Of a stretch of 64,000 bases of DNA, positions 10,909-24,945 are shown one piece after another; position 1 is the first letter of the stretch, and every line of letters begins with the position of its first letter. A model generated the notes under the pieces. The model worked only from the letters and a program-made list of their open reading frames with translations. It did not search any database and was not told where the DNA came from. The stretch covers positions 62,001 to 126,000 of the forward strand of contig JABSQP010000004.1 of assembly GCA_013215815.1 (NCBI GenBank). The letters run 5' to 3'. This stretch comes from Alphaproteobacteria bacterium. GTDB taxonomy: Bacteria > Pseudomonadota > Alphaproteobacteria > Micavibrionales > Micavibrionaceae. The translations under genes were made by a program, and so were the position numbers.

Positions 10909-12087
10909 ATGCTTTCATCCTTCCTAAATGGTAGAAAAATTTATGAACGCTATGTTTTTAGAAATCTGGCTATGGCGACATTGCTCACTTCTGTCGTATT
11001 AGCGGCTATAATTCTTCTCACTCAATCTTTAAAATTTTTAGAACTTATTATTGAATCTGGAGCATCAAGCACAGCATTTTGGTTGTTAACGCTAATGGCA
11101 TTGCCACGATTTTTCGAGGTGATTTTGCCCATTGCAACAATGATTGGTTGCTTGTTTGTTTATAACCGTCTGGCTTCCGATAGTGAAGTTGTGGTAATGC
11201 GCGCCGCCGGATTTTCTCCTATATTGCTTGCAAAACCAGCGCTGCGCGTTGCTATTTTGGTTTCAGCGTTAATGCTATTCATTACAATGTGGCTCGCGCC
11301 TGTAACCCTTTCAAATATGCAGCATATGAGACAAGTAATTAAAGCTCAATATTCTGCTCTGCTTTTGAGGGAAGGTGTGTTTAATCAGTTGGGTGATGAT
11401 CTAACTGTCTACGTTCACAATAAGAATAAGGAAGGCGCACTTGAAGGCATTATCGTTCACGATAGTCGTGATAACTTACCTGAGCCTGTGACGATCCTTG
11501 CGAAGAAAGGAATGATTGTTCTCTCTGATGAAGGGCAACAAGTGCTTGTTTATGATGGATCGCGTCAAGATGTGTCGGGTGAAACAGGCACGCTCAATAG
11601 GCTTGATTTTGATCGTTACTCGATTGACTTACCTGAAGGAAAAGACGTGCGTTTGCGCTGGAAAGAGCCAGATGAAAGGACGTTTTTAGAACTTCTTAAT
11701 CCAGATGAAAATTTAAAGCGTGATCGTGATAATAAAGACGCATTTATTGTCGAGGCGCATCGACGTATCGTGACGCCATTCTTATCAATAACATTTACAG
11801 TTGTCGTTTTAGCGACGTTGCTTCTTGGCCCCGTCAATAGGCGCGGACAAGCGTGGCGTGTTACATTGGCGGCGGCATCAGTTGTTGTTTTACAAGGGTT
11901 ATTTCTTGGAAGTGTTAACCAATCTTCTCAATCAGTATTTGGTTTGATTGGTATGTATTTAATTACATTTGCACCTCTCATCGGCGGGGTACTGTTATTA
12001 AGTCCTTATTCGGAGAAGGTCAGACAAAAATGGTTGTATAGACGCCGCAGCCACTCCGATCAAAAAACGGAGGTTAGCTATGATTAA
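10909..12087 (+). CDS. lptF: LPS export ABC transporter permease LptF
   Basis: A 392-residue inner-membrane permease of the YjgP/YjgQ family. With LptG and the ATPase LptB it extracts lipopolysaccharide from the inner membrane into the Lpt bridge. Hydrophobic segments near 20-40, 60-80 and 105-125 are followed by a periplasmic beta-jellyroll region (about 140-270) and three more segments at the C-terminus. The early YERYVFRNLAMATLLTSVVL stretch is characteristic. It overlaps lptG by eight bases, the usual tight coupling. pepA-holC is divergently transcribed from the same region. Confidence 0.94.
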   Translation: MLSSFLNGRKIYERYVFRNLAMATLLTSVVLAAIILLTQSLKFLELIIESGASSTAFWLLTLMALPRFFEVILPIATMIGCLFVYNRLASDSEVVVMRAAGFSPILLAKPALRVAILVSALMLFITMWLAPVTLSNMQHMRQVIKAQYSALLLREGVFNQLGDDLTVYVHNKNKEGALEGIIVHDSRDNLPEPVTILAKKGMIVLSDEGQQVLVYDGSRQDVSGETGTLNRLDFDRYSIDLPEGKDVRLRWKEPDERTFLELLNPDENLKRDRDNKDAFIVEAHRRIVTPFLSITFTVVVLATLLLGPVNRRGQAWRVTLAAASVVVLQGLFLGSVNQSSQSVFGLIGMYLITFAPLIGGVLLLSPYSEKVRQKWLYRRRSHSDQKTEVSYD

Positions 12088-13183
12088 ACAGTTTATGGCT
12101 TTCACTCTTAATTTTTATTTGATGCGTGTGTACATCATTAATTTCCTTATTTTGTTATTTTGTTTACTTGGCATTGTGTATCTATTTGATGTTGTTGAGT
12201 TGTTACGCCGCGCTGCCAAGTTTGATGATGTGCCTCTTACTTCGGTGTTACAAATGGGATTGTTAAAGTTACCTGAGGTCGGTCAGCAGGTTTTTCCGTT
12301 TGTTATACTTTTTAGCGCAATGTTTACATTTTGGCAGCTTTCAAGGCGTTACGAGCTTATTGTAATGCGCTCCTCAGGCCTTTCTGTCTGGCAATTTATG
12401 ATGCCTGTTATTTTATCTGCAATATTAATCGGTATTGTACAAATTGCAGTGATCAATCCGTTTAGCGCCTATTTAATTAAGCGATTTGAATCTCTTGAGT
12501 CTGTTTATTTAAATACACAAACAAATATTATATCTATTTCAAAGCAAGGATTGTGGCTTCGCCAAGAACATGACGATGGTCTCGCTATTCTTCATGCTGA
12601 AGAAGTCAAAATGCCGGAGTGGGAATTACAAAACGTCATCGTTTTGTTCTTTGATGAAGATTTTCATTTTCTACGCCGTGTCGATTCTAAGAGTGCGGTC
12701 CTTGAAAGAGGGCAGTGGCAATTTAAAAACGCATTTACAAATCAGAATGGTGAAAAGCAGGAACAAGCAGACTATATTTCTATGGCGACAGATTTAACGA
12801 TTGATGAAATTGAAGAGAGTTTCTCTGACCCTCTCACAATTTCTTTTTGGGCACTGCCTTCATTTGCTAAAACTGTTGAAGCTGCTGGTTTTAACGCTAT
12901 TCCTCTTAAAGTTCATTTTCAAAAACTTTTATCAACGCCCATCCTATTCTTAGCGATAATATTTTTAGCAGCATCTGTCTCTTTAAGGCCGCCGAGAGAG
13001 CAGGGGACATTTATGTTAATTGTTTTAGGGATTGCCATTGGTTTTGGCGTGTTTTTCTTATCTAACTTTTTACAAGCTTTAGGTGCTTCCGGGCAGATTC
13101 CGATCTTTATTGCAGCGTGGTTCCCGTCGATTATAGCCTTTATTTTAGGTCTTAGTGTCATATTGAGCGTGGAAGATGGTTAA
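12080..13183 (+). CDS. lptG: LPS export ABC transporter permease LptG
   Basis: A 367-residue partner of LptF with the same arrangement: three N-terminal membrane segments, a periplasmic domain and three C-terminal segments. The motif LPEVGQQVFPFVILFSAMF near residues 57-75, and the cytoplasmic coupling region SRRYELIVMRSSGLSVW, which contacts LptB, are typical of the family. Its ATG overlaps the end of lptF. The gene is followed by 180 bases with no clear gene before mlaA; a weak CTGAAAATA/TATTTTTCAG inverted repeat near 13237-13258 may act as a terminator. Confidence 0.94.
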   Translation: MIKQFMAFTLNFYLMRVYIINFLILLFCLLGIVYLFDVVELLRRAAKFDDVPLTSVLQMGLLKLPEVGQQVFPFVILFSAMFTFWQLSRRYELIVMRSSGLSVWQFMMPVILSAILIGIVQIAVINPFSAYLIKRFESLESVYLNTQTNIISISKQGLWLRQEHDDGLAILHAEEVKMPEWELQNVIVLFFDEDFHFLRRVDSKSAVLERGQWQFKNAFTNQNGEKQEQADYISMATDLTIDEIEESFSDPLTISFWALPSFAKTVEAAGFNAIPLKVHFQKLLSTPILFLAIIFLAASVSLRPPREQGTFMLIVLGIAIGFGVFFLSNFLQALGASGQIPIFIAAWFPSIIAFILGLSVILSVEDG

Positions 13184-13363
13184 TTTCGGTTGATTTTACT
13201 ACTTGGCATAGGTAAATCTTAATGAAGTTTAAGATACTGAAAATATTTTATTTTTCAGAATACGGAAAAGGTCTTGTTAACCATTCCACTATAGAATAAG
13301 TGATAGTTTTAAACGGCAGAACGGCTGTATCTAATCAAATATAATAAATTGGTAGAAAAGAAG

Positions 13364-14128
13364 ATGAAACAACTGGGGTATAAAACATTAGCGCTAACTT
13401 TGGCAGCATGTGTGTCTTTGGCGGCATGTTCAGGTACTATGAGCGGGGCCGATGGTTATTCGGAAATTCCTGATCCTTTTGAAGATGTTAACAGAGTAAC
13501 GTTTCAATTTAACGAAGCAGTTGATAAGGCTGTCTTAGAACCTGTGGCACGCGGCTATCGCGCTGTAACACCAGGTGGTATTCGTACAGTTGTCAGTAAC
13601 TTCATTACAAATTTAAAAAGTCCAATCGTTATTGGTAACCAGCTTTTACAAGGTGATCTTGAAGGTGCTGGTAATGCGACAGCACGTATGGTGATTAATA
13701 CGTTAGCTGGTTTCGGTGGTATCCTTGATCTTGCTGATGAAGGTGGTATTGAGCATGAGCCGGAAGATTTTGGTCAGACACTTGCGACATGGGGTGTTGG
13801 CGATGGAGCATATGTTGTTCTTCCACTGCTTGGCCCATCAAGCATTCGTGATGCATCAGGGATGCTTGTTGATAGCTATGCTGATCCTCTTCGTATTTAC
13901 CTTTTCAATGTTGAAGAAGAGGGCTGGCATTATGCACGCGTTGGCGCAACAGTCTTAAGTGAGCGCGAGCGTTTGCTTGATGTTGTTGATGATCTACGTC
14001 GTAACTCATTTGATTACTACGCGGCTCTTAGAAGTGCTTACTATCAGAACAGACAGTCTATTATTCGTGATGAGAAAGCTGTCGGATCTGCGGGAGGCCC
14101 TGAAATCCCAGATTACGATGATTTCTAA
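13364..14128 (+). CDS. mlaA: MlaA (VacJ) family outer membrane lipoprotein
   Basis: A 254-residue lipoprotein that removes misplaced phospholipid from the outer leaflet of the outer membrane and passes it to MlaC. I start at ATG 13364 (MKQLGYKTL); an in-frame TTG 15 bases upstream is less likely. The signal peptide contains a lipobox, SLAAC, near residues 18-22. The mature protein begins with the family motif IPDPFEDVNRVTFQFN, and contains the ring-forming segment with GFGGILDLADE and the DFGQTLATWGVGDGAYVVLP region. mlaC follows 83 bases downstream, so lipid transport genes are grouped here. Confidence 0.95.
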   Translation: MKQLGYKTLALTLAACVSLAACSGTMSGADGYSEIPDPFEDVNRVTFQFNEAVDKAVLEPVARGYRAVTPGGIRTVVSNFITNLKSPIVIGNQLLQGDLEGAGNATARMVINTLAGFGGILDLADEGGIEHEPEDFGQTLATWGVGDGAYVVLPLLGPSSIRDASGMLVDSYADPLRIYLFNVEEEGWHYARVGATVLSERERLLDVVDDLRRNSFDYYAALRSAYYQNRQSIIRDEKAVGSAGGPEIPDYDDF

Positions 14129-14162
14129 GATTTTATAATTAAGACAAATAAAAACTTTATCT

Positions 14163-14214
14163 CATAAGCGTCTTATGCCAATAATGCTCTCGTAATAACG
14201 AGGAGACGCTTATG
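14163..14214 (+). promoter_or_regulatory. Nested inverted repeat sequestering the mlaC ribosome binding site and start codon
   Basis: CATAAGCGTCT at 14163-14173 is the exact reverse complement of AGACGCTTATG at 14204-14214, an 11-bp perfect stem whose 3' arm contains the mlaC ATG (14212-14214). Inside its loop a second hairpin pairs CTCGT (14189-14193) with ACGAG (14198-14202), which overlaps the GAGGAG Shine-Dalgarno sequence. In RNA both the ribosome site and the start codon would be base-paired. This suggests translational control such as a thermosensor, a protein site or ribosome-driven opening. Alternatively it is a DNA operator. Confidence 0.6.
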
Positions 14215-14883
14215 ACAAAACTTGGTTTTTTATCTTTAGCAATTATAGCATCTACAAGCACGTCGGCTTTGGCTTTTGATTTTGGCAAAGTCACAGCTCA
14301 TTATGCAGCGCTATCATCGCATAATAGTGTTTATGTCGAAGTTTCTGATGAGGTCGAGGTAAAAGAACTCACACCGAGTGAGGCGTTCATTGATACGATG
14401 GGAAAGACCGCCGTTTCCTTTCTTGCTAATGAAACTTTGTCACAAGATCAAAAAAGAGCTGAGTTCGAAAAGCTTCTCAAGAAAAATTACGACATGAAAA
14501 CTATTGGTCGTTTCGCTTTAGGTAAAAACTGGAATCTGGCAAATGACGCTCAGCAGAAAGAATATCTGAAGCTTTTTGAGCAAATGGTTGTTGATGTTTA
14601 TTCACAGCGCTTTGATGATTACGAAGGACAGCGCTTCGAAGTGCGTGCGTCACGCGATGTAGGTAAGAGTGATCAATTGATAAATACAGTAATTATTCCA
14701 GATTCAGGCCCGGAGATTGATGTTGATTGGCGTGTTCGTACAAAGGACGGAAAACGTAAAATCATTGACGTTATCATTGAGGGTGTGAGTATGTCTTTGA
14801 CACAGCGCTCTGACTTTTCAAGCGTTATACAGCGTGGTGGTGGTACTATTGAACCATTACTTGAGCATTTGAGAAGCCGGTAA
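14212..14883 (+). CDS. mlaC: MlaC/Ttg2D family periplasmic phospholipid-binding protein
   Basis: A 223-residue protein with a signal peptide of about 22 residues ending near ALAFDF. MlaC ferries phospholipids across the periplasm between the MlaA complex and the MlaFEDB transporter. Family features include the helical LSQDQKRAEFEKLLKKNYDM stretch, FALGKNW, and the strand region INTVIIPDSGPEIDVDWRV followed by KIIDVIIEGVSM. GAGGAG precedes the ATG at a good distance, but both lie in a strong inverted repeat. The mlaBDEF genes are not in the window. The gene converges on the DotA-like operon with eight bases between stops. Confidence 0.9.
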   Translation: MTKLGFLSLAIIASTSTSALAFDFGKVTAHYAALSSHNSVYVEVSDEVEVKELTPSEAFIDTMGKTAVSFLANETLSQDQKRAEFEKLLKKNYDMKTIGRFALGKNWNLANDAQQKEYLKLFEQMVVDVYSQRFDDYEGQRFEVRASRDVGKSDQLINTVIIPDSGPEIDVDWRVRTKDGKRKIIDVIIEGVSMSLTQRSDFSSVIQRGGGTIEPLLEHLRSR

Positions 14884-14891
14884 GTTGTTTT

Positions 14892-17660
14892 TTATAGGTT
14901 AGGCTCTGGTATTGGGCTTTGTGCAGGTTGGTGTCCTTGAAGTGATCTACCGATATTGCCGACACCTCCACTAATTTGCCCGCCAAAGACGCTTCCTGCC
15001 ATTGTGACGTAAGTCATCAAACCTTTTGCAGAATCGTCGTTACTGTCGTTGAAACTTGGTGTTTCAGCGCCCATCCATCTGGTTAGAATGGTGTTTGGAA
15101 TCATATCTATTAATTTAAAGCTGGCCATACCAATCATATAGACCAAAATTGCATAAATGATTGTAAAGAAGAAGTCGTCAACAGGTCCGCGCATCCAATC
15201 CGTGGTACCCGTAGGAGCTGATCCTCCAGCGCCACGCGCACCAGCACAGAAGCTAGATGTATTGGCGTCGAACCCAGCTAGGTTTGCAATAGCGAGTTCA
15301 AAAATATCGTTAAGAACCCTCACCATGGCAGCAAAAACAGAAATAGCGGCAATAAGACCAAATATGATGAGTATTGGGCGTATAAATATCTCGAAAATCA
15401 GGAAGTATCCTTGAATTCCGGCCTCTCCAGGGATCCCATCGCCATCGATGCGTAAATGTGCCAATGCCCATAAAGGAATGGCGACCATCGCTTCAAATAT
15501 GCTTTTTACCCATCCACCGACAGCAAAGAAGAAATATAGAAATGGCATAAATGGAACGACATAGAATAATAAGAAGCCTATCAATAATCCTATGCTGGTG
15601 ACTGTTCCGAAAAATTGTGCAAACGCGAATGTTGTGGAACTAACTGCACTTGAGGTAACGCCCAAGATGGTTGTTAAAACCGTTAGTCCTGCTGCAGAGA
15701 TAGAACTCTCAATCATTGCGCGCCCAACACCAGAGAGTTGAGCCAAAGGATGTATATCAGCATTTTTACACATATCAAATAGGCCCTCGGTGCCGAGGAC
15801 AGTATTGATTGTATCCACTATGATATTACCTGTGCGTCTTTGCTCTGGTTGATAATTAACCCAGTTCAAATATGGTTGGTTAAGAGCAATCGCTATTTGT
15901 CTATCAATAGGAAAATCTTCAAAAGGATCAACTGTTCCCGCAGAGAAAGAAGGTGTGAACTGATCTTCAGGCGTAGGGTTGTCATCACTCTCTAGCTTTG
16001 TTTGATGAACAGTTTCCATGACAAGGGGGTAGGATTTGGCTCTAGGAATTCCCATGAGCGCTGATACCAGGGCACCATTTTTTTGAGCTATTTTATTATA
16101 CCATATACCGGCGCCAGCCCAGCCCAGCTGCCTGCTTTCATCTGTCATGTCGTAAACGGAATTACCATCATCGTCGGTCGCAATTTGCGCCTGCACAGCA
16201 TCATAGACAACTCCATCTGTTCCGCTACCATCTCCTTCGAAGAGCGTTTGCATTTCCGATACGATATAGTCGGCCATTTCTTGACCCGGGATCAGGTAGT
16301 TTGCATCCCCTTCAGTTGAATATTTAAGAAAGTTGGCCACGTAGTTATGGGCGTTAACATCTATAGTCGTATATAAATCTGTAACCCGCCCGCCAGAAGC
16401 ATTAAAGTCTGCGAACCATATATTTTTTATTAAATCAAAATAGGCTGTTTGAAAGACAGCAGATCCTGGTTCGGATACATCAGAAACTGGCAGTGTTATA
16501 GATCCACAATATGGTTCTATACCTCCTGCGACATTTGGATAACGATCGCTATTTTTTTCTCCGAAAATAATTGTTAAATCATCTCCACCAGAACGGATAG
16601 CGAAATCTTGGAATGTAATATCAGCTGTCGCTGGATCATCAGTAGCATCAATGGTTCCATCACCATTTGTATCTGTTTGATCTTCAGAGAGTGAAGTATT
16701 GTCTGAATCGCCATTACCCCACGAAACATGGGCCTGTATATCATAGTCAGAGCGTCCTGCGTACGCCCATTCACAAGTTTTCACAATGAGCATGAATGCA
16801 GGAACTTCTGATATTTTGTTGATGTCTGCTTCAGGCAAAGAAATAAGATTGTTCCTATTTCCTGCAGGAGTTTCGCCGCCATGCTCGATATGATCAACAA
16901 AGTAAATCCATCCGCTTGTCGCGAGACCCGATCCATACTTTGCGGCGTGCATGAGGATTATTTGCCCGCCGTTTAAGCCTGATGAGATAGGGATAATAAG
17001 GCCAAAGAAGATAATAAGCCTAGGTGCAACCCAAGTGTGCGTAAAACGTTGCCCAAAAGGAACCCCAGACTGCACCGTCTCGGATACTATCGTAATGACA
17101 AAATATAGGATGATAATAACGCTGACGATTAAGATACCTATGCTGTAAAACTCAAGCATTGCTTGTAAGCCGGCATGAAATGCGTTGGCATTGGCTATTT
17201 CATTAGAGTCAAATACGCCAGGAACACCAAATACGAGGTCTAGCAGCCTGAATGCTATGTCAGTTTCATTGTGAACGGTTGTAAAAAAGCCACCATAGTT
17301 AGTGGGCATTGCCGGTTGCGCACTAGCCGCTTTAATAAATAAGGAGATAGCTAGCACGACAAATTGAAGTACAAAAAGCACAAGGCCAACAATAACGGAT
17401 CCAAAGATAATAATCTGATCAATATTTTTTTTAGAAAAAGTGATGTTATGTGCTGCTGCGCCTAAAACTTTTCTAATCGTGTATTTGTTATTTGGATCGT
17501 TTGATAGAGCAGGATGGTTGTTTGGTAAAATACGCGCGGCATTAAAGATATAAGCTATTAGAAAACTTAAGTATGAAAAAAATCTTGTCCCAAATAATGC
17601 CTTAAAGCGCGGAAATATTTGCGGCAGAAGTAAATATTTTAAAGTACCTGCTTTTGTCAT
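14892..17660 (-). CDS. DotA/TraY-like type IV secretion membrane protein, paralogue 3
   Basis: A 922-residue polytopic protein, last of three tandem paralogues; it starts nine bases after its neighbour's stop. The N-terminus carries the shared motif ILPNNHP (44-50). A hydrophobic segment follows at about 83-108, then ASAQ at 112-115, which looks like a signal peptidase site. Next come a membrane segment near 173-193 and PFGQRFTHTWVAPRL with IPISSGLNGGQ and KYGSGLATSGW. A large soluble central region (about 255-610) has Asp-rich stretches. The C-terminal membrane domain contains the DotA/TraY hallmark IPLWALAHLRIDGDG. DotA is an inner-membrane channel-like component of Dot/Icm (IVB) secretion and TraY its conjugative relative. 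No other dot/icm gene is in view, so the function is unproven. Confidence 0.82.
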   Translation of the reverse strand: MTKAGTLKYLLLPQIFPRFKALFGTRFFSYLSFLIAYIFNAARILPNNHPALSNDPNNKYTIRKVLGAAAHNITFSKKNIDQIIIFGSVIVGLVLFVLQFVVLAISLFIKAASAQPAMPTNYGGFFTTVHNETDIAFRLLDLVFGVPGVFDSNEIANANAFHAGLQAMLEFYSIGILIVSVIIILYFVITIVSETVQSGVPFGQRFTHTWVAPRLIIFFGLIIPISSGLNGGQIILMHAAKYGSGLATSGWIYFVDHIEHGGETPAGNRNNLISLPEADINKISEVPAFMLIVKTCEWAYAGRSDYDIQAHVSWGNGDSDNTSLSEDQTDTNGDGTIDATDDPATADITFQDFAIRSGGDDLTIIFGEKNSDRYPNVAGGIEPYCGSITLPVSDVSEPGSAVFQTAYFDLIKNIWFADFNASGGRVTDLYTTIDVNAHNYVANFLKYSTEGDANYLIPGQEMADYIVSEMQTLFEGDGSGTDGVVYDAVQAQIATDDDGNSVYDMTDESRQLGWAGAGIWYNKIAQKNGALVSALMGIPRAKSYPLVMETVHQTKLESDDNPTPEDQFTPSFSAGTVDPFEDFPIDRQIAIALNQPYLNWVNYQPEQRRTGNIIVDTINTVLGTEGLFDMCKNADIHPLAQLSGVGRAMIESSISAAGLTVLTTILGVTSSAVSSTTFAFAQFFGTVTSIGLLIGFLLFYVVPFMPFLYFFFAVGGWVKSIFEAMVAIPLWALAHLRIDGDGIPGEAGIQGYFLIFEIFIRPILIIFGLIAAISVFAAMVRVLNDIFELAIANLAGFDANTSSFCAGARGAGGSAPTGTTDWMRGPVDDFFFTIIYAILVYMIGMASFKLIDMIPNTILTRWMGAETPSFNDSNDDSAKGLMTYVTMAGSVFGGQISGGVGNIGRSLQGHQPAQSPIPEPNL

Positions 17661-17669
17661 TTAATAACC

Positions 17670-20339
17670 TTATGGTGGCGTGCTTCCAGCTGGGGGAGGT
17701 TGTACAGGTACAATTCTCTCTCTAACGCCCTGTGTCGCACTACTAAATGCGCTTCCTGCTTGACCGAGAGCACCTTGGATCTGTCCGCTGATCATTGTAC
17801 CACCAACAGCCACTTTCTGCATGAGACCTTCCGCAGGTTCGCCAGCCTGATCATTGTAGGTGTTCACGCCTGTACCCATCCAACGCATGATATTGTTTGG
17901 TATCATATCAATAAGTTTAAAAGTCGACATACCGATCATGTACACCAAAATGGCATAGACAACTGTGAAGAAAAATTCATCGATAGGTCCGCGAATCCAC
18001 TCAGCGCTACCGACTGGATTTGAACCACTACTTGTAGTACATCCTGTTGGAGCTGCTGCACCGCCGCCGCCAGCACCTGCTGATGTTGCGGATTCAAAGC
18101 CTGCTAAGTTGGATGTTGCGAGATAGAAAATATCGTTCAGCACTTTGACCATGGCACCAAAGACTGTAATGGCAGCTAGCAAGCCAAATACGATAAGGAT
18201 AGGTCGGATAAAAATTTCAAATATGAGATAATACCCATTAATCGCCGCATCGCCTGGTAGACCTTGTCCGTCTATTCGTAAATGCGCAAGTGCCCAAAGA
18301 GGTAGCCCAACCATTGCTTCGAACAATCCTTTAACCCAACCACCAACTGCGAAAAAGAAATATAAAAATGGTAAAAACGGAACCAAATAAAACAATATAA
18401 AGCCGATTAATATTGTGATGCCTGCAATAGTAAATAAGAAACTAGAAGCTGCGCCTGCTGCAGCTGCGCCAACAGGCAGAGTTGCACTTAATACATATCC
18501 ACCAAGTGCCAATCCTACGTTTCGTATTGAGCTTTCGATTAATCCTTTACCTAGAGCGGATAATTGAGCCATAGGGTGAATGTCTGCGTTCGCACACATA
18601 TCAAATAGGCCTTCTGTTCCAAAAATCAAATTGATTACATCAATAAAGACGTTATCTGTGCTTCCCTCTTCATTATCTGCCCAGTATTCGTGAATATCTT
18701 TTAAGCCTTCATGGATCTTAGAGTCCATATATACAGCCGGAGGCACTCCGCGCCCGTTCCTAAGGCTTGCTTCAAATTCATCACGCGATGAACTTTCGTT
18801 GCCTTGTAAATTTTTGTAACGGTAATATTCCATGACCTCTGGATAGCGGCGTGTATAAGGAACATTCGTTGCTGATGAAATGAGATTACCATTTTGCTGC
18901 GCGATTTCGTTATACCAGATACCTGCACCGGCCCAGCCTTGCTCACTATAGACGGTGACTGCATCAGCTGTGTATTCGCTTTGTTGCTGTATTACTCCAG
19001 CACGAATTGCCGACTCAATTCTCGATTCTGCGGCTTCAATAATATCATCTCTGTTTTGGGCTGTAGGAAGAAAGTAAGTGCCAGATGGTTCTACTACTCT
19101 GTCTATGTATTGTTCTGCAAAGATTCGCATGCCATTAAAATTAGTTAGCCACATCGATCTGACGAGATCAAAGTAGGCTGTATTGATGAGGCGACCGCCA
19201 TCATCGGTTATATGCGTTACATCTAACGTTAGTTCACCACAATATGGGTAAACATTACCTGGGTGATCTGTGTAGGCTGTATTTTGTTCGCCGAAGACAA
19301 TACTAATATTGCCGTTGTTGTAAAAAGTTAGGGCGCTATCATAATCACTAATAACTTCGGCGGCGCCGCCGTCATAAGATTTAACAAGATACGCATCAAT
19401 CGTAATAGGAAACGAAAGACCGCTTGTTTCATTTTCATAGGCGTATTTACAACCCTTAGCGATCATCATAAAGCTCGCAAGTTCGCGTAGGCGCGGTACA
19501 TTTGGCGTTGCGATGAGTTCGTCACTTTCGGCAAGGCCGCCTAGATAATCCGCATTTGCATTGATTCGCACACGGTTAAATTCAACCCATCCATTTGTTG
19601 CAAATCCAGAGCCAAACTTTGCGGCATACAGTGTTATCCATTGCGCGGAATTTAATCCATAACTAATCGGAACTAGCAAACCTATGGCCACAACAAGGCG
19701 AATAGGTGCCCATACGTGGTTAAATCTTTTACCAAAAGGTGTTCCGGTTTGTGCGGTCTCTGCCAAAACCGCAAAGACGAAGTAAGCAAGAATGATGGCG
19801 GCAATAACTAAAATTCCAAGACTATAATATTGGAACAAAGAGTGCATAGCAGCATGGAAAGTTGTCGGTGTAGTTAATGAAGGCGCAAACATTCCAGGAA
19901 TTCCGAAGACTTGAGAAAGTAACTGGAAAGCAATATCGGTGTCCGGGTTTGGTGTTGTGATAAATCCACTATAGCTTGCCGGGATCTGAGCAGATGCCGA
20001 TCCCATCATGATTGATCCGAGGAGTAAGATAAATTGGAACGATAATAAAACAATGCCTATGAGTAATAAGAAAAATATAAGAACTTTATCAATATTCTTC
20101 TTATCAAAAACCAAGTGAGAAGAGGCTTCAGTTAAGACCTGGAAAACACCATATTTTCCCACATTTCCGGACTGTGTATACGGATGATTATTGGGTAAAA
20201 TATTAACAGCACGATATACGAGTGCCATGTTGTAGGCCAATGTATCAAACCCATTGCCGATTAATGTACGAAACCTGTCACCCAAACCAGGGAGAAGGGC
20301 GTAACGGAAGATTTTACCTGTTGTGAGGGCTAATATCAT
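17670..20339 (-). CDS. DotA/TraY-like type IV secretion membrane protein, paralogue 2
   Basis: An 889-residue protein with the same layout as its two neighbours: ILPNNHP at 47-53, a hydrophobic segment at about 86-112, and ASAQ at 115-118 as a signal-peptidase-like site. FGKRFNHVWAPIRLVV then begins the first membrane block, with VPISYGLN and KFGSGFATNGW. The central soluble region (about 255-590) is variable. The C-terminal block has FFFAVGGWVKGLFEAM, LPLWALAHLRIDGQG and EIFIRPILIVFGLLAA, the strongest similarity to DotA/TraY. Its ATG overlaps the TGA of the upstream paralogue by four bases, so the pair is translationally coupled. A Gly/Ala-rich patch (about 755-770) precedes the last membrane segment. 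Confidence 0.82.
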   Translation of the reverse strand: MILALTTGKIFRYALLPGLGDRFRTLIGNGFDTLAYNMALVYRAVNILPNNHPYTQSGNVGKYGVFQVLTEASSHLVFDKKNIDKVLIFFLLLIGIVLLSFQFILLLGSIMMGSASAQIPASYSGFITTPNPDTDIAFQLLSQVFGIPGMFAPSLTTPTTFHAAMHSLFQYYSLGILVIAAIILAYFVFAVLAETAQTGTPFGKRFNHVWAPIRLVVAIGLLVPISYGLNSAQWITLYAAKFGSGFATNGWVEFNRVRINANADYLGGLAESDELIATPNVPRLRELASFMMIAKGCKYAYENETSGLSFPITIDAYLVKSYDGGAAEVISDYDSALTFYNNGNISIVFGEQNTAYTDHPGNVYPYCGELTLDVTHITDDGGRLINTAYFDLVRSMWLTNFNGMRIFAEQYIDRVVEPSGTYFLPTAQNRDDIIEAAESRIESAIRAGVIQQQSEYTADAVTVYSEQGWAGAGIWYNEIAQQNGNLISSATNVPYTRRYPEVMEYYRYKNLQGNESSSRDEFEASLRNGRGVPPAVYMDSKIHEGLKDIHEYWADNEEGSTDNVFIDVINLIFGTEGLFDMCANADIHPMAQLSALGKGLIESSIRNVGLALGGYVLSATLPVGAAAAGAASSFLFTIAGITILIGFILFYLVPFLPFLYFFFAVGGWVKGLFEAMVGLPLWALAHLRIDGQGLPGDAAINGYYLIFEIFIRPILIVFGLLAAITVFGAMVKVLNDIFYLATSNLAGFESATSAGAGGGGAAAPTGCTTSSGSNPVGSAEWIRGPIDEFFFTVVYAILVYMIGMSTFKLIDMIPNNIMRWMGTGVNTYNDQAGEPAEGLMQKVAVGGTMISGQIQGALGQAGSAFSSATQGVRERIVPVQPPPAGSTPP

Positions 20340-23059
20340 CCGGCACCTCCTGGTGGTCGTGTAGGCTGGGCTGCTGCGTTAGAGAGGCCACCTATACCTT
20401 GTCCTAGTTGTGTAAAGCCACCTGCAAGTTGACCACCAATACGCATACCACCAATAGCGGCGTATTGTGAAAGTCCTTGGGTTGGATCTTGCGTGTTATC
20501 ACTGAAGGCTGAAGCAGAAGAACCAATCCAACGTAAAATGTTATTTGGAACTAAGTTGATCATTTTAAATGATGCGATACCCATCATATACAAAATGACG
20601 GCATAAACGATTGTGAAAAAGAATTGATCAATTAAGTGTCGTCCAAATTCATCTGTTTCAGCCCCTGGTACGCTCAAATCATTACCTGTGACATTAATAA
20701 CAACAAGGTCGAAAATAGAATTAAGTGTCGTGGCTAACGCAACGAAGGTCGCCATACCTGCAACAAGACCGAATACGGATAAGATAGGCCTTAAGAAAAT
20801 TTCTAATATTAGGTAATATCCGTTAATGGCATTCTTTCCAGGAAGACCTTCACCATCAATTCTTAAGTGTGCAATTGCCCAAAGAGGAGCAGCGCACATT
20901 GCTTCGAAAATACTCTTCACCCATGCACCGACGGCGAAGAAGAAGTAGATAAATGGCAACATCGGTAGAATATAAAAGAGGATGAAGCCCATTGATAAAC
21001 CAACTGTTGCGATCGATACAAAAAATCCACTGGCAGCTTGGGCTGTTTGTGCAAAAGGCCCAAGAATAGCTGTGGCGCCACCAAAGAAAGAGGCACCCAT
21101 AGCAAGCGCCATGTTACGTACTGCGCTTTCAACTAAGCTTTTTCCGATAAGCGTGAGTTGAGCGAGCGGATGAATAGAGACGGTTACAGGCCCGCCTCCT
21201 CCCGCAGGAGTATATGTCACGTTTTGTCTTATATTAAATAAACCATTCAGGCCAAATATGGCAGCTATTGCATCTTTAAAAACGTTATATGTGAGTCCGG
21301 TTTCGCCGCAGCGCCAATATTGGTATGTTTCATTCATTACACGAGCGTAATAAGATTCTGTAGCATTTAGATCAATGCGATCTTGTTCTGCAGATTCGGG
21401 CAAGTTTGGTTCAAACATTTTACAGGAAGAAGTCTCAGCTGAATGCTGTCGTCTTTCTTCTAAAACTTTTTTTAGGACTTCTGGGTATTCTTTTTCATGC
21501 GGGAAATCCATTACCGCAACTGTATAAGCACCGTTTACTTCTGAAATTTTGCTATACCAAATACCAGCGCCGCCCCAGCCACGATTAAGAATTTCATCCG
21601 TCATTTCAAACTGAACATTCGTGCGTGCATCATCAATAAAACTGCGAATATCAGTATCAATTATAGATTGTATTGATGAGACGATAGAATCTTTGTAAGA
21701 CGATGGTGGTTTTATGCTAAGTTGGCAATTGTCCCCTGAGGGGCCACCTCCACCGCCGCTTCCAGGGTCTGTAATTGTACATACAGAGCGGCTTCTTGCG
21801 GGGTGTTGAGACCATGAAATCCGTTGACCAATAAAATCAAGGTAAGTGCTTACCCATAAGAAGTTAACAATGCGAAAATAATTTTCTTGTAGATTTGATG
21901 TTGACGTAGGTGCTCCGCCACCGCCGCCTGACGATACAGTGGTCGCCTCATCACTTAAACCTGCCGGAACAATAACGGATCCACAGTAAGGTCTGACAGC
22001 AGAGTTCCCTCCTGCACTGATATCTTCACCAAAGATGATTTCAATATCGCCATTTTCACTTGCTGCTTTTGCTACTGAATATGTAGATGCGGTGGATATA
22101 ATGTAGTTAGAGCCGTTATGTACATATGCGTTTATAACTATAGGGGGATCCTCATTAATTGCATATGCTTCACGGCAAGCATGTACGACCGACATAAATG
22201 AAACTAAAGAATGTGGATTAGGTGAGTCAGGATATCCAATTAAAGCGGCATCAGGAGCGCCTGTTGGATTGCTTAAACCGCTATTAAACAAAATCCAACC
22301 ATTCGTTGCAAAGCTAGACCCTAGTTTCGCAGCATGCAGAACAATATATTGCGATCCGTTAATACCGTTTGCGAGAGGAACTAAAAGGCCAATGGCAACA
22401 ACGAGCCTTATTGGCGCATAAATATGAGCAAAACGCTTACCAAAAGGTGTTCCTGTTTGCGCTGTTTCTGCAACAACGACAACGACGTAGTACAAGAACA
22501 CAACGACGGCGACAATTAAGATCGCCATGTTGTAGAAATAAAAGAGTTGGTGCAAAGCCAAGTGAAATGGTGTGCCTGTTGGAGCGCTGGATCCAAAAAA
22601 ACCAGGAATGCCGAAAGTGTGATCTAGCATCTGAAAGGCAACATCTGTTGGTACTTGGGCTGCTGGTGTTTCAAACATACCTTGCGCGAAGGCCTCACGG
22701 CTAAAAATCATAAAGACAAGAGCAAGGAACTGTAAAATTAAGAGAAGTATTCCGGCAAGCACAGCGCCAAAGATCAGGACTTGGTCCCAATTTCTTTTAT
22801 TGACGGTAATGTTATTTGCCGCTGCTGCTAGTACATCTCTTAGCCCATATTTGCCAATATTTGATGGATTAAGGTATGGGTGGTTGTTTGGCAGAATGCG
22901 CACTGCGTTATAGACGCTTGCTATCAAAAACGCGAAATAGCCAAAACCTGAACCAACGAGTTCTCTAATTTGGGGAATAAAACCAGGCAAAAGCACGTAT
23001 CGCAGGACATTTTTAGCCCGCAACTTCTCTTTCAATAATTCATGCGCTTGTGCCGTCAT
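20336..23059 (-). CDS. DotA/TraY-like type IV secretion membrane protein, paralogue 1
   Basis: A 907-residue protein, first of the tandem trio and so closest to the promoter. AAGAGAAA precedes ATG 23059. It has an extra N-terminal basic helix, then ILPNNHP (55-61), a hydrophobic segment at about 94-119, and AFAQ (123-126), a likely signal peptidase site. FGKRFAHIYAPIRLVV and KLGSSFATNGW follow. Two glycine-rich linkers (SSGGGGGAP and GSGGGGGPS) break the central region, together with cysteines absent from the other two. The C-terminal part carries APLWAIAHLRIDGEG and EIFLRPILSVFGLVAG. Family assignment rests on this block; a divergent role among the three is likely because the middles differ greatly. 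Confidence 0.82.
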   Translation of the reverse strand: MTAQAHELLKEKLRAKNVLRYVLLPGFIPQIRELVGSGFGYFAFLIASVYNAVRILPNNHPYLNPSNIGKYGLRDVLAAAANNITVNKRNWDQVLIFGAVLAGILLLILQFLALVFMIFSREAFAQGMFETPAAQVPTDVAFQMLDHTFGIPGFFGSSAPTGTPFHLALHQLFYFYNMAILIVAVVVFLYYVVVVVAETAQTGTPFGKRFAHIYAPIRLVVAIGLLVPLANGINGSQYIVLHAAKLGSSFATNGWILFNSGLSNPTGAPDAALIGYPDSPNPHSLVSFMSVVHACREAYAINEDPPIVINAYVHNGSNYIISTASTYSVAKAASENGDIEIIFGEDISAGGNSAVRPYCGSVIVPAGLSDEATTVSSGGGGGAPTSTSNLQENYFRIVNFLWVSTYLDFIGQRISWSQHPARSRSVCTITDPGSGGGGGPSGDNCQLSIKPPSSYKDSIVSSIQSIIDTDIRSFIDDARTNVQFEMTDEILNRGWGGAGIWYSKISEVNGAYTVAVMDFPHEKEYPEVLKKVLEERRQHSAETSSCKMFEPNLPESAEQDRIDLNATESYYARVMNETYQYWRCGETGLTYNVFKDAIAAIFGLNGLFNIRQNVTYTPAGGGGPVTVSIHPLAQLTLIGKSLVESAVRNMALAMGASFFGGATAILGPFAQTAQAASGFFVSIATVGLSMGFILFYILPMLPFIYFFFAVGAWVKSIFEAMCAAPLWAIAHLRIDGEGLPGKNAINGYYLILEIFLRPILSVFGLVAGMATFVALATTLNSIFDLVVINVTGNDLSVPGAETDEFGRHLIDQFFFTIVYAVILYMMGIASFKMINLVPNNILRWIGSSASAFSDNTQDPTQGLSQYAAIGGMRIGGQLAGGFTQLGQGIGGLSNAAAQPTRPPGGAG

Positions 23060-23191: not shown

Positions 23192-23220
23192 TAATAAAAA
23201 AGGCGTTAATAACGCCTTGA
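23192..23220 (-). terminator. Rho-independent terminator after ettA
   Basis: AAGGCGTT (23200-23207) and AACGCCTT (23211-23218) form an 8-bp perfect stem with a three-base loop. Read on the minus strand the stem is followed by TTTTTTATTAT. It lies 46 bases beyond the ettA stop and before the DotA-like operon on the same strand. It therefore separates the two transcripts, and the DotA-like operon must have its own promoter in 23060-23190. Confidence 0.85.
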
Positions 23221-23265: not shown

Positions 23266-24945
23266 CTATCCCGCTTTACGTAAAGGCTTATATTTAATTG
23301 TATGCGGTGTTTCCGAATCTTTGCCTAAACGGCGTTTTCTGTCCTCTTCATAATCGGCGTAGTTCCCTTCAAACCAGACAACCTGAGAATCACCTTCATA
23401 AGCCAAAATATGGGTGGCAATACGGTCCAAGAAAGCACGATCGTGAGAAATAACGACGGCACAGCCTGCAAAGCGTTCTAATGCTTCTTCTAGAGCTGAG
23501 AGTGTTTCGGTATCTAAATCGTTTGTCGGTTCGTCGAGAAGCAGGACGTTGGCACCACTTTTGAGCATTTTTGCCAAATGGACACGGTTTCTTTGACCGC
23601 CTGATAAATTCCCAACTTTTTGTTGTTGGTTAGGCCCGCGGAAATTGAAAGCGGACACGTACGCACGGGATTGCATTTCAATCTTCCCGAGTTTTAAAAT
23701 GTCATTCCCTTCAGAAATCTCTTCCCAAACGGTTTTGTTTGGATCCAAGGCATCACGGCTTTGGTCGACATAACCGAGTTTCACAGTATCACCAACAGTA
23801 AAACTACCGCTGTCTGGCGTTTCCTGCTCTGTGATCATACGAAATAGCGTCGATTTACCGGCGCCGTTTGGCCCGATGATTCCAACGATACCGCCAGGCG
23901 GAAGTTTAAAGGATAGGTCTTCAATAAGAAGGCGATCATCATACCCTTTAGAAATGTTCTTTGCTTCAATCACAAGGTCACCAAGGCGTGGTGGTGTTGG
24001 AATGACAATCTGCGCATTACGTTGTGTTTGATTTTCTGATTCGGCCAAGAGCTGCTCGTATGAAGAAATACGGGCTTTTGATTTGGCCTGACGAGCCTTT
24101 TGACCTTGCCTGATCCACTCAAGTTCACGTGCCAATGTTTTCTGGCGCGCAGCTTCTTGTTTTTCTTCCTGTTGAAGGCGCTTTGCTTTTGTTTCGAGGT
24201 AAGCCGAGTAGTTTCCTTCGTAAGGAATACCGTTTCCGCGGTCAATTTCAAGGATCCAGCCTGTTACATTATCGAGGAAGTAACGATCGTGCGTCACCAT
24301 GACGACTGTACCTGTATACTCTAACAGGAAGCGTTGGAGCCAAGCAACGCTCTCTGCATCCAAGTGGTTTGTTGGTTCGTCGAGTAGCAGCATATCTGGT
24401 TTTTCAAGAAGAAGACGACATAGCGCGACGCGGCGTTTTTCACCGCCTGAAAGTTTTGATACATCGGAATCCTTTGGTGGACAGCGAAGAGCTTCCATTG
24501 CCATCTCAATTGTACGGTCAATTTCCCAACCATCAACTGCATCAATTTTTTCCTGTAATTCACCCATTTCGACCATCAGGGCGTCCATATCGCAATCCGG
24601 GTCTGCCATTTCGGCGCCAATGGCGTTGTAACGATCAACAAGCGTTTTTACATCACCCATCCCGTCCATGATGTTTTCAAAAACATTTTTTGCTGAATCT
24701 AGCTCGGGTTCTTGTTCTAAATATCCGACGCGTACACCCTCTGCAGCCCATGCTTCGCCACTATATTCCTTATCAATACCGGCCATAATCTTAAGAAGCG
24801 TTGATTTACCAGCGCCGTTTGGCCCTAAAACACCAATTTTTGCACCAGGTAAGAATGAAAGCGTGACTTCATTTAGGACAGGTTTACCACCTGGAAAAAC
24901 CTTGCTCAGGGCTTTCATGACATAGACGTATTGATAAGAACTCAT
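23266..24945 (-). CDS. ettA: Energy-dependent translational throttle protein EttA (ABC-F)
   Basis: A 559-residue soluble protein with two ABC ATPase domains and no membrane part. EttA binds the ribosomal E site and gates the first steps of elongation according to ATP level. Walker A GPNGAGKST occurs in both halves (near 39-47 and 355-363). Signatures LSGGEKRRVALCRLLLE and LSGGQRNRVHLAKMLK are each followed by LLLDEPTNHLD or LLLDEPTNDLD. The charged linker between domains (about 250-300) is the P-site tRNA interaction motif. The short arm insertion in domain 1 (around 95-140) is as expected for EttA rather than Uup. Length matches E. coli EttA (555). Confidence 0.96.
   Translation of the reverse strand: MSSYQYVYVMKALSKVFPGGKPVLNEVTLSFLPGAKIGVLGPNGAGKSTLLKIMAGIDKEYSGEAWAAEGVRVGYLEQEPELDSAKNVFENIMDGMGDVKTLVDRYNAIGAEMADPDCDMDALMVEMGELQEKIDAVDGWEIDRTIEMAMEALRCPPKDSDVSKLSGGEKRRVALCRLLLEKPDMLLLDEPTNHLDAESVAWLQRFLLEYTGTVVMVTHDRYFLDNVTGWILEIDRGNGIPYEGNYSAYLETKAKRLQQEEKQEAARQKTLARELEWIRQGQKARQAKSKARISSYEQLLAESENQTQRNAQIVIPTPPRLGDLVIEAKNISKGYDDRLLIEDLSFKLPPGGIVGIIGPNGAGKSTLFRMITEQETPDSGSFTVGDTVKLGYVDQSRDALDPNKTVWEEISEGNDILKLGKIEMQSRAYVSAFNFRGPNQQQKVGNLSGGQRNRVHLAKMLKSGANVLLLDEPTNDLDTETLSALEEALERFAGCAVVISHDRAFLDRIATHILAYEGDSQVVWFEGNYADYEEDRKRRLGKDSETPHTIKYKPLRKAG

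Follow-up and report, generated by a model that had tools for sequence, protein, structure and literature searches.

What are three DotA/TraY-like genes doing side by side, with no other Dot/Icm gene around them? The question is raised by a 64,000-nucleotide stretch of contig JABSQP010000004.1 (assembly GCA_013215815.1), referred to here as the window, which comes from an alphaproteobacterium of the Micavibrionaceae. The triplet consists of three adjacent open reading frames (ORFs), all on the minus strand, that encode proteins of 889-922 amino acids (aa). In the order of transcription these are paralogue 1 (907 aa, positions 20336-23059), paralogue 2 (889 aa, 17670-20339) and paralogue 3 (922 aa, 14892-17660). 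The ORF coordinates bear out the sizes, the adjacency and the junctions given in the original prediction, namely a 4-base overlap between paralogues 1 and 2 and a 9-base gap between paralogues 2 and 3, and judging from these junctions the three genes are likely transcribed together. We argue that their products are almost certainly DotA-family parts of a Dot/Icm machine. A fuller reading, in which they are VirB6-class stalk proteins of one dispersed type IVB machine whose stalk has diversified and is perhaps heteromeric, is in our judgement evenly poised.

Family membership and predicted fold

All three proteins match the NCBIfam model TIGR04346 (DotA_TraY), with 257.9, 264.4 and 219.9 bits for paralogues 1, 2 and 3, respectively; since these scores are far above the model's cut-off of 100, the match is well beyond chance. 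Sequence searches of the PDB find DotA at an E value of 1e-16, and at 1e-22 with a profile of all three proteins. The DotA/TraY identity claimed earlier has thus withstood the profile search for every one of the three. No dotA exists elsewhere in the genome: its DotA/TraY matches are the triplet only, a fourth match being a C-terminal piece of the middle gene. By their sequences, the three proteins are members of the DotA family that fall outside its Legionella-type equivalog. No Pfam family exceeded its cut-off for any of them, and the Pfam DotA family PF11388 had no match in this genome and none in any control genome either. PHROGs gave no match for the three proteins, nor did PADLOC for paralogue 3, the sole DotA scanned with it.

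In a three-way alignment, where the other two paralogues are 45% and 40% identical to the 922-aa protein, the ILPNNHP and PFGxRF motifs are common to all three, as had been noted; the W-x-P-x-R motif reported with them is literally present in the middle gene and has that form only there. The C-terminal block reads PLWALAHLRIDG in two paralogues and PLWAIAHLRIDG in one. The middles of the proteins do differ as originally described (26-36% identity between paralogues over residues 266-560), but this is nothing special to the triplet, because the same stretch is also the fastest-evolving one between orthologues (40-42% identity to those of a related locus, L009, versus 65-77% in the two membrane blocks). 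The idea that the divergent middles reflect specialisation of the paralogues was rejected on this ground. Comparison by region of the window with L009, L015 and L093 gave no clear signal of gene conversion between the second and third genes. Against L009, orthologues were closer than same-genome paralogues in every region except the short block 781-830, where the window's second and third genes are 70% identical, above the 66% between the two third genes; against the more distant L015 and L093 the order of orthologues and paralogues was equal or reversed in some blocks.

An AlphaFold model of paralogue 2 alone, computed from an alignment of 72 related proteins selected from the window and the named loci described below, reached a mean pLDDT (predicted local distance difference test) of 81.4 and a pTM (predicted template modelling score) of 0.72. 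In Foldseek, this predicted fold matched a single PDB entry with E <0.001, namely 9ngy, the DotA-IcmX protochannel of Legionella, through its DotA (E 5e-13). VIA-align superposed the model on 9ngy with a Z score of 21.2 over 582 aligned residues (root-mean-square deviation 6.4), placed the R388 VirB6 protein TrwI second (Z 9.7) and scored the next entry at 4.1; it ranks Foldseek's own candidates only, and the absence of other folds there means little.

A Dot/Icm machine spread over the genome

The original prediction saw no other Dot/Icm genes, which is true of the neighbourhood but wrong for the genome, since other contigs carry the machine. The source assembly is a draft of 1.92 Mb in 53 contigs, 99.94% complete, and the machine's genes are spread over three of these (C34, C50 and C4). 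The genes dotB, dotC and dotD, singled out earlier for a genome search, are all present on C50, together with icmT, dotI, dotH, dotG, a weak dotF, an IcmD-like gene, dotN and the gene of a 995-aa ATPase; C4 carries dotM and the gene of a DotL/TrbC-type coupling protein. Scores in this genome were 269.8 for PF16932, 120.9 for PF16816 and 280.3 for PF12293. DotI (204.6 bits, cut-off 175), IcmT (84.2, cut-off 40) and DotN (106.3, cut-off 100) exceed the thresholds of their models, DotD does not (99.2 bits for NF033882, cut-off 140), and DotB scores 394.8 with its best family, TIGR02524, under a cut-off of 463.3. DotM passes DotM_C (157.7 over 27) and remains under NF033890 (140.1, cut-off 230). 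Similarly, DotG passes PF03743 (46.3 over 35), finds the DotG of the PDB at E 5e-22 and stays under NF033900 (158.7, cut-off 750); it is 450 aa long here versus 1048 in the PDB. NF038218 gave 29.2 bits, under its cut-off of 200. The protein in the DotL position exceeds the cut-offs of TraG-D_C and TrwB_AAD_bind, its closest NCBIfam model being that of plasmid TrbC (401.9, cut-off 800).

The 995-aa ATPase has no NCBIfam, Pfam or PDB match that names DotO; we call it DotO-like because a profile of three members from the order matches the TraU-position gene of a plasmid type IVB secretion system (T4BSS) at 1e-215. Neither this protein nor the IcmD-like repeat protein had a sequence match in the PDB. 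The IcmD-like gene of C50 is tentatively so named, in part for its likeness to a hit of the TraQ model in L094. A 634-aa membrane protein (L098:11428-13332, C50, minus strand) contains four stretches that resemble the nearby 152-aa IcmD-like protein at 31-43% identity, and its shorter relative in L094 matches the TraQ model as well as DUF6750, the latter over cut-off; judged by these repeats, it is a concatenated IcmC/IcmD/TraQ-like protein. Beside icmT lies the gene of a 246-aa protein (L006:3347-4087) with a secretin-N (STN) match below cut-off and a relative in the dot cluster of genome G045 (L095). Two genes within the dot/icm cluster (L006:4101-7741 in this genome, and also in L094, L095 and L097) are presumably of flagellar hook-associated type, judging from the sequence.

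Copy number and history of the probable stalk genes

To what extent is the triplet a property of this one genome? Named genome contigs were scanned at the protein level, and the top 80 of 89 matches resolve into 72 distinct loci, all found via DotA. Their entries bear the titles Micavibrio sp., or Alphaproteobacteria, Proteobacteria or Pseudomonadota bacterium, and almost all are metagenome-assembled. NCBI taxonomy places Micavibrio under Bdellovibrionota, while PMC9418006 uses Micavibrionales as the name of the order. Tandem dotA genes number three in 50 of the 54 named loci that are uncut by a contig end and four in the other 4, and the remaining 18 of the 72, which are cut, retain one to three. 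Across the order, DotA/TraY is found in 135 of 142 genomes (101/104 in the window's family, 34/38 in other families), DotH in 132 with one match each, and DotC in 133, again with one match each except for three genomes that have a second partial or sub-cut-off match. In a class-wide sample, by comparison, 14 of 289 genomes have DotA/TraY, three of these 14 belonging to the window's family. The DotA_TraY and DotH models matched none of 14 control genomes, and because DotA_TraY lacks a match there, the negatives in the class sample rest on the positives of the same searches. One of the other 11 genomes with a match (G241) has two DotA/TraY copies about 106 kb apart. On plasmids, 574 DotA/TraY places occur in 570 records, so that a single copy is the rule. 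G012 and G057 gave open frames of 1812 and 1829 aa, respectively, that might have been fusions of neighbouring dotA genes; this was rejected, since the DNA shows separate genes.

The origin of the triplet is best seen in the other families of the order, from which 16 dotA loci were chosen, mostly from the best matches and not at random. Ten of them (L080-L088 and L090) have a single dotA; there are two in L089 and L096, two in L091 (the second cut off), three in L092 and L102, and two dotA-like frames in L103. The single dotA of L080 stands between lptF/lptG-mlaA-mlaC and an ABC-F-type gene, which is the site of the window's triplet, and that of L085 stands directly downstream of dotI-dotH-dotG-dotF. 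On the evidence of these two loci, in-place duplication of one dotA, a component of the machine, in an ancestor of the family is the most likely origin of the triplet. A new role away from Dot/Icm, which the original prediction had offered as one possibility, consequently fits poorly, whereas its other suggestion, a diversified secretion channel set, agrees with the presence of the rest of a Dot/Icm machine on other contigs.

The neighbours in question are, in the window, an lptF/lptG-type pair with mlaA and mlaC, convergent with the triplet (10909-14883, plus strand; Pfam LptF_LptG twice, MlaA and MlaC), and, upstream, an ABC-F-type ATP-binding protein gene (23266-24945, minus strand; Pfam ABC_tran and ABC_tran_Xtn). 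Between the latter and paralogue 1 lies a terminator-like hairpin (23200-23218, minus strand), by which the triplet would probably be a transcription unit of its own; the hairpin comes from a weak consensus scan that returned 10 terminator-like sites in the region, a slight excess over the shuffle mean of 7.8 (standard deviation 2.9).

Trees were computed with IQ-TREE for 73 of 109 sequences (12 loci dropped; LG+F+G4, at most 100 iterations, so that bootstraps are approximate) and with FastTree for 216 full-length DotA proteins, truncated ones excluded, the two showing a similar pattern. In the former, most first genes, paralogue 1 of the window included, form a clade (bootstrap 84) apart from the second and third genes (91), with a joint node at 97; the deepest nodes within the family are weak (17-42). 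Within the window's lineage each dotA copy groups with the copy in the same position of other loci, and paralogue 3 falls into the last-gene clade of that lineage with a bootstrap of 100. Separate duplication clades in L089, in L096 and in L092/L102 (bootstrap 100 each) imply that tandem duplication of dotA occurred repeatedly in the order. Two DotA-like proteins of family f6, of 1383 aa (L102:6411-10562) and 1330 aa (L092:9751-13743), are about 400 aa longer than usual. Outside the order, the alphaproteobacterium G359 has two adjacent DotA/TraY genes (C14:23383-28817), which are possibly the product of another independent duplication.

DotA is probably not the only stalk component to have multiplied. 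Five related genes on the opposite strand of C50, with one small gene among them, separate the dotD-icmT side of the cluster from its dotI-dotG side; their products of 456-641 aa have a C-terminal domain in common at 39-46% identity and begin with what appear, by eye, to be signal peptides. Sequence comparison makes it probable that they belong to the TraW/IcmX family, that is, to the VirB5 class (a table in PMC12624023 equates VirB5 with TraW and IcmX, and VirB6 with TraY and DotA, all as stalk pentamers). An hhalign comparison of the family with proteins near plasmid dotA/traY gave a probability of 81 and an E value of 1.2e-5. Two rough controls, one of which (A7) was a mixed set of four proteins and not a family, gave 0.1 and 0.2; a plasmid protein (in L121) was dropped as an outlier, leaving the score unchanged. 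Plasmids of Martelella and Nitratidesulfovibrio have a related gene one to two genes before dotA/traY. A six-member profile found two Desulfosarcina plasmid genes, located after a DotO-like gene, at 3-4e-4 (0/20 shuffled sets match), one of which also matches the TraW model at 2.8e-4; an eleven-row profile (A2) missed the same two genes. A tblastn search of plasmids with two members gave no match, viral contigs held no relative of the family, and a structure model built from a two-row alignment was discarded at pLDDT 32.

At E 1e-5, this putative TraW/IcmX family has matches in 128 of the order's 142 genomes (100/104 in the window's family and 28/38 outside it), with 1 to 9 matches per genome, of which one protein can give two; the matches of G000, G001, G045 and G121 are circular, their proteins being rows of the profile used. 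It matched in one of eight genomes of family f5, in which dotA is single in the four loci fetched, and f5 members may be missed because that sole match, G121, is a circular one. Five genes are present in the window's own genome and in 11 of 12 loci fetched, which were chosen and not random. That five genes reflect five-fold symmetry was rejected as a rule, L117 having three and G045 two. The tree of the family resembles the dotA history, in that the last gene diverged early from the others and separate duplications occurred elsewhere; across eight loci of the window's lineage, three orthologue groups are cleanly resolved and the other two are intermixed in some loci. The N-terminal part of the last paralogue (L006:7847-9751, C50, minus strand) has a stretch that resembles a transglycosylase, its Pfam SLT score of 13.9 bits being under the cut-off. 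A similar pattern is seen by eye in L108-L111 and not in the first 130 residues of L112, L114, L115, L117 and L119.

One mixed stalk or several

How, then, would a machine of a kind that normally has a single DotA use three of them? In the explanation we favor, dotA would have been duplicated in place in an ancestor of the family and its copies retained. The DotA position of the stalk (three genes) and the probable TraW/IcmX position (five genes) are multiplied, with DotH and DotC, the two ring or outer-membrane components counted, single. The paralogues would sit together in one five-fold stalk, forming a heteromeric protochannel of the DotA-IcmX type, in which they would have a conserved membrane core in common and vary in their fast-evolving parts, and the machine would deliver proteins into contacted cells. 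Co-assembly of the DotA paralogues in one stalk we judge to fall just short of an even chance.

Several observations weigh against this explanation. The Legionella-type DotA equivalog NF033886 scored only 173.4, 165.3 and 160.7 bits for the three paralogues, under its cut-off of 500; the TraW model NF033888 matched 1 of 55 members of the five-gene family, at 1.9e-6 and 27.3 bits (cut-off 100), and the IcmX of the PDB was found by none of that family's profiles. Copy numbers do not correspond in any simple way: two TraW/IcmX-like genes accompany three dotA in G045, L117 has three TraW/IcmX-like genes, and the single dotA of G002 goes with six matches to that family. In the dotA tree, genes 2 and 3 split separately within sub-lineages of their clade, and six loci (L042, L050, L054, L071, L073 and L079) place only their last one or two genes in it, the others falling elsewhere, mostly at weak nodes; for these two reasons the copies do not amount to three family-wide orthologue groups. 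Finally, what the analysis establishes is the family of the proteins, the predicted fold of one paralogue, the machine's genes in this genome, and the conservation and history of the triplet; mixed oligomers, a role as a channel, the cargo and the cells targeted are inferred.

Could the paralogues instead be interchangeable, each DotA forming a homopentamer that pairs with one TraW/IcmX-like tip, uses a shared outer complex and serves a prey, growth phase or cargo of its own? A genome with several stalk genes but a single DotH and a single DotC would suit such an arrangement, as would the fast evolution of the middle parts. However, three dotA genes in one tight array point to simultaneous production and not to switching, and at least three copies are kept in all 54 untruncated named loci. 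Because of this tight array and the conservation of at least three copies, we favor joint use in one stalk and regard exchange of whole channels as possible but doubtful. An increase in the amount of DotA, by tandem duplicates that bring no new properties, would accord with the recurrence of tandem duplication in several lineages and with the pairing of genes 2 and 3 within sub-lineages; given that the paralogues are only about 40-45% identical and that, in the window's lineage, copies group by position across loci, such a pure dosage effect is quite unlikely. It is very improbable that the T4BSS is a conjugation machine that moves DNA and whose extra DotA/TraY proteins alter entry exclusion. 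Plasmid TraY does take part in entry exclusion (PMC6112013), and the DotL-position protein is nearest to plasmid TrbC, but DotA is nearly universal in the order and adjoins housekeeping genes, and the relaxase families PF03432, PF03389 and PF08751, each of which matched in one control genome, had no match in this genome, these three being the ones searched.

What would the machine serve? The lifestyle of cultured Micavibrio (PMC6145908) and the bacteria-killing type IV systems of other genera (PMC6759196, PMC6536674) suggest delivery into prey bacteria. Carried furthest, the mixed-stalk explanation would posit a nearly order-wide type IVB machine whose stalk combines different DotA (VirB6) paralogues in its lower part with different IcmX/TraW (VirB5) paralogues in its upper part. 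One IcmX/TraW paralogue would bear a wall-cutting domain in some members, and the machine would breach the prey envelope in a mostly uncultured order that includes attached predators; in this complete form we consider it speculative and rather unlikely.

Among known systems, the Legionella DotA-IcmX complex has the same DotA family and fold, and here, too, homologues of most of the Dot/Icm core parts searched are present. It is described as a pentameric axial protochannel that is opened by a large conformational change (PMC12857230); in contrast to this DotA-IcmX pentamer, the present genome has three DotA genes and five for the probable IcmX position. IncI-type plasmids have in common with it the DotA/TraY profile, probable TraW relatives and TraQ-like and TrbC-like proteins, but mostly carry one DotA/TraY, whereas there are three here without a match to the three relaxase families. 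In the same order, PMC9418006 describes pT4SSi in seven Micavibrionales, defined by virB4/icmB and accessory proteins without a relaxase, and the word DotA is absent from its main text; a genome study of M. aeruginosavorus (PMC3189940) reports no evidence of a type IV system. Open-licence literature on Dot/Icm and secretion in Micavibrio and on DotA duplication contained no description of the triplet among the matches listed.

What is new is thus a dotA triplet in a type IVB machine, and its nearest precedent is the multiple VirB6 proteins of the Rickettsiales, five in Rickettsia and four in Anaplasma (PMC2653234, PMC7648143). There, too, several divergent VirB6-class paralogues occur in Alphaproteobacteria, in tandem in Anaplasma, but the rvh system is of the VirB/D4 kind and the genes associated here are type IVB, so the likeness is one of analogy; the triplet would have originated independently of those arrays, because it goes back to one dotA at its present site. 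A Dot/Icm machine that is nearly order-wide is a candidate route for protein delivery by attached predators, and its multiplied stalk makes it testable whether VirB5-VirB6 stalks of five-fold symmetry can be hetero-oligomeric; if so, the multiple VirB6 genes of the Rickettsiales might have the same explanation.

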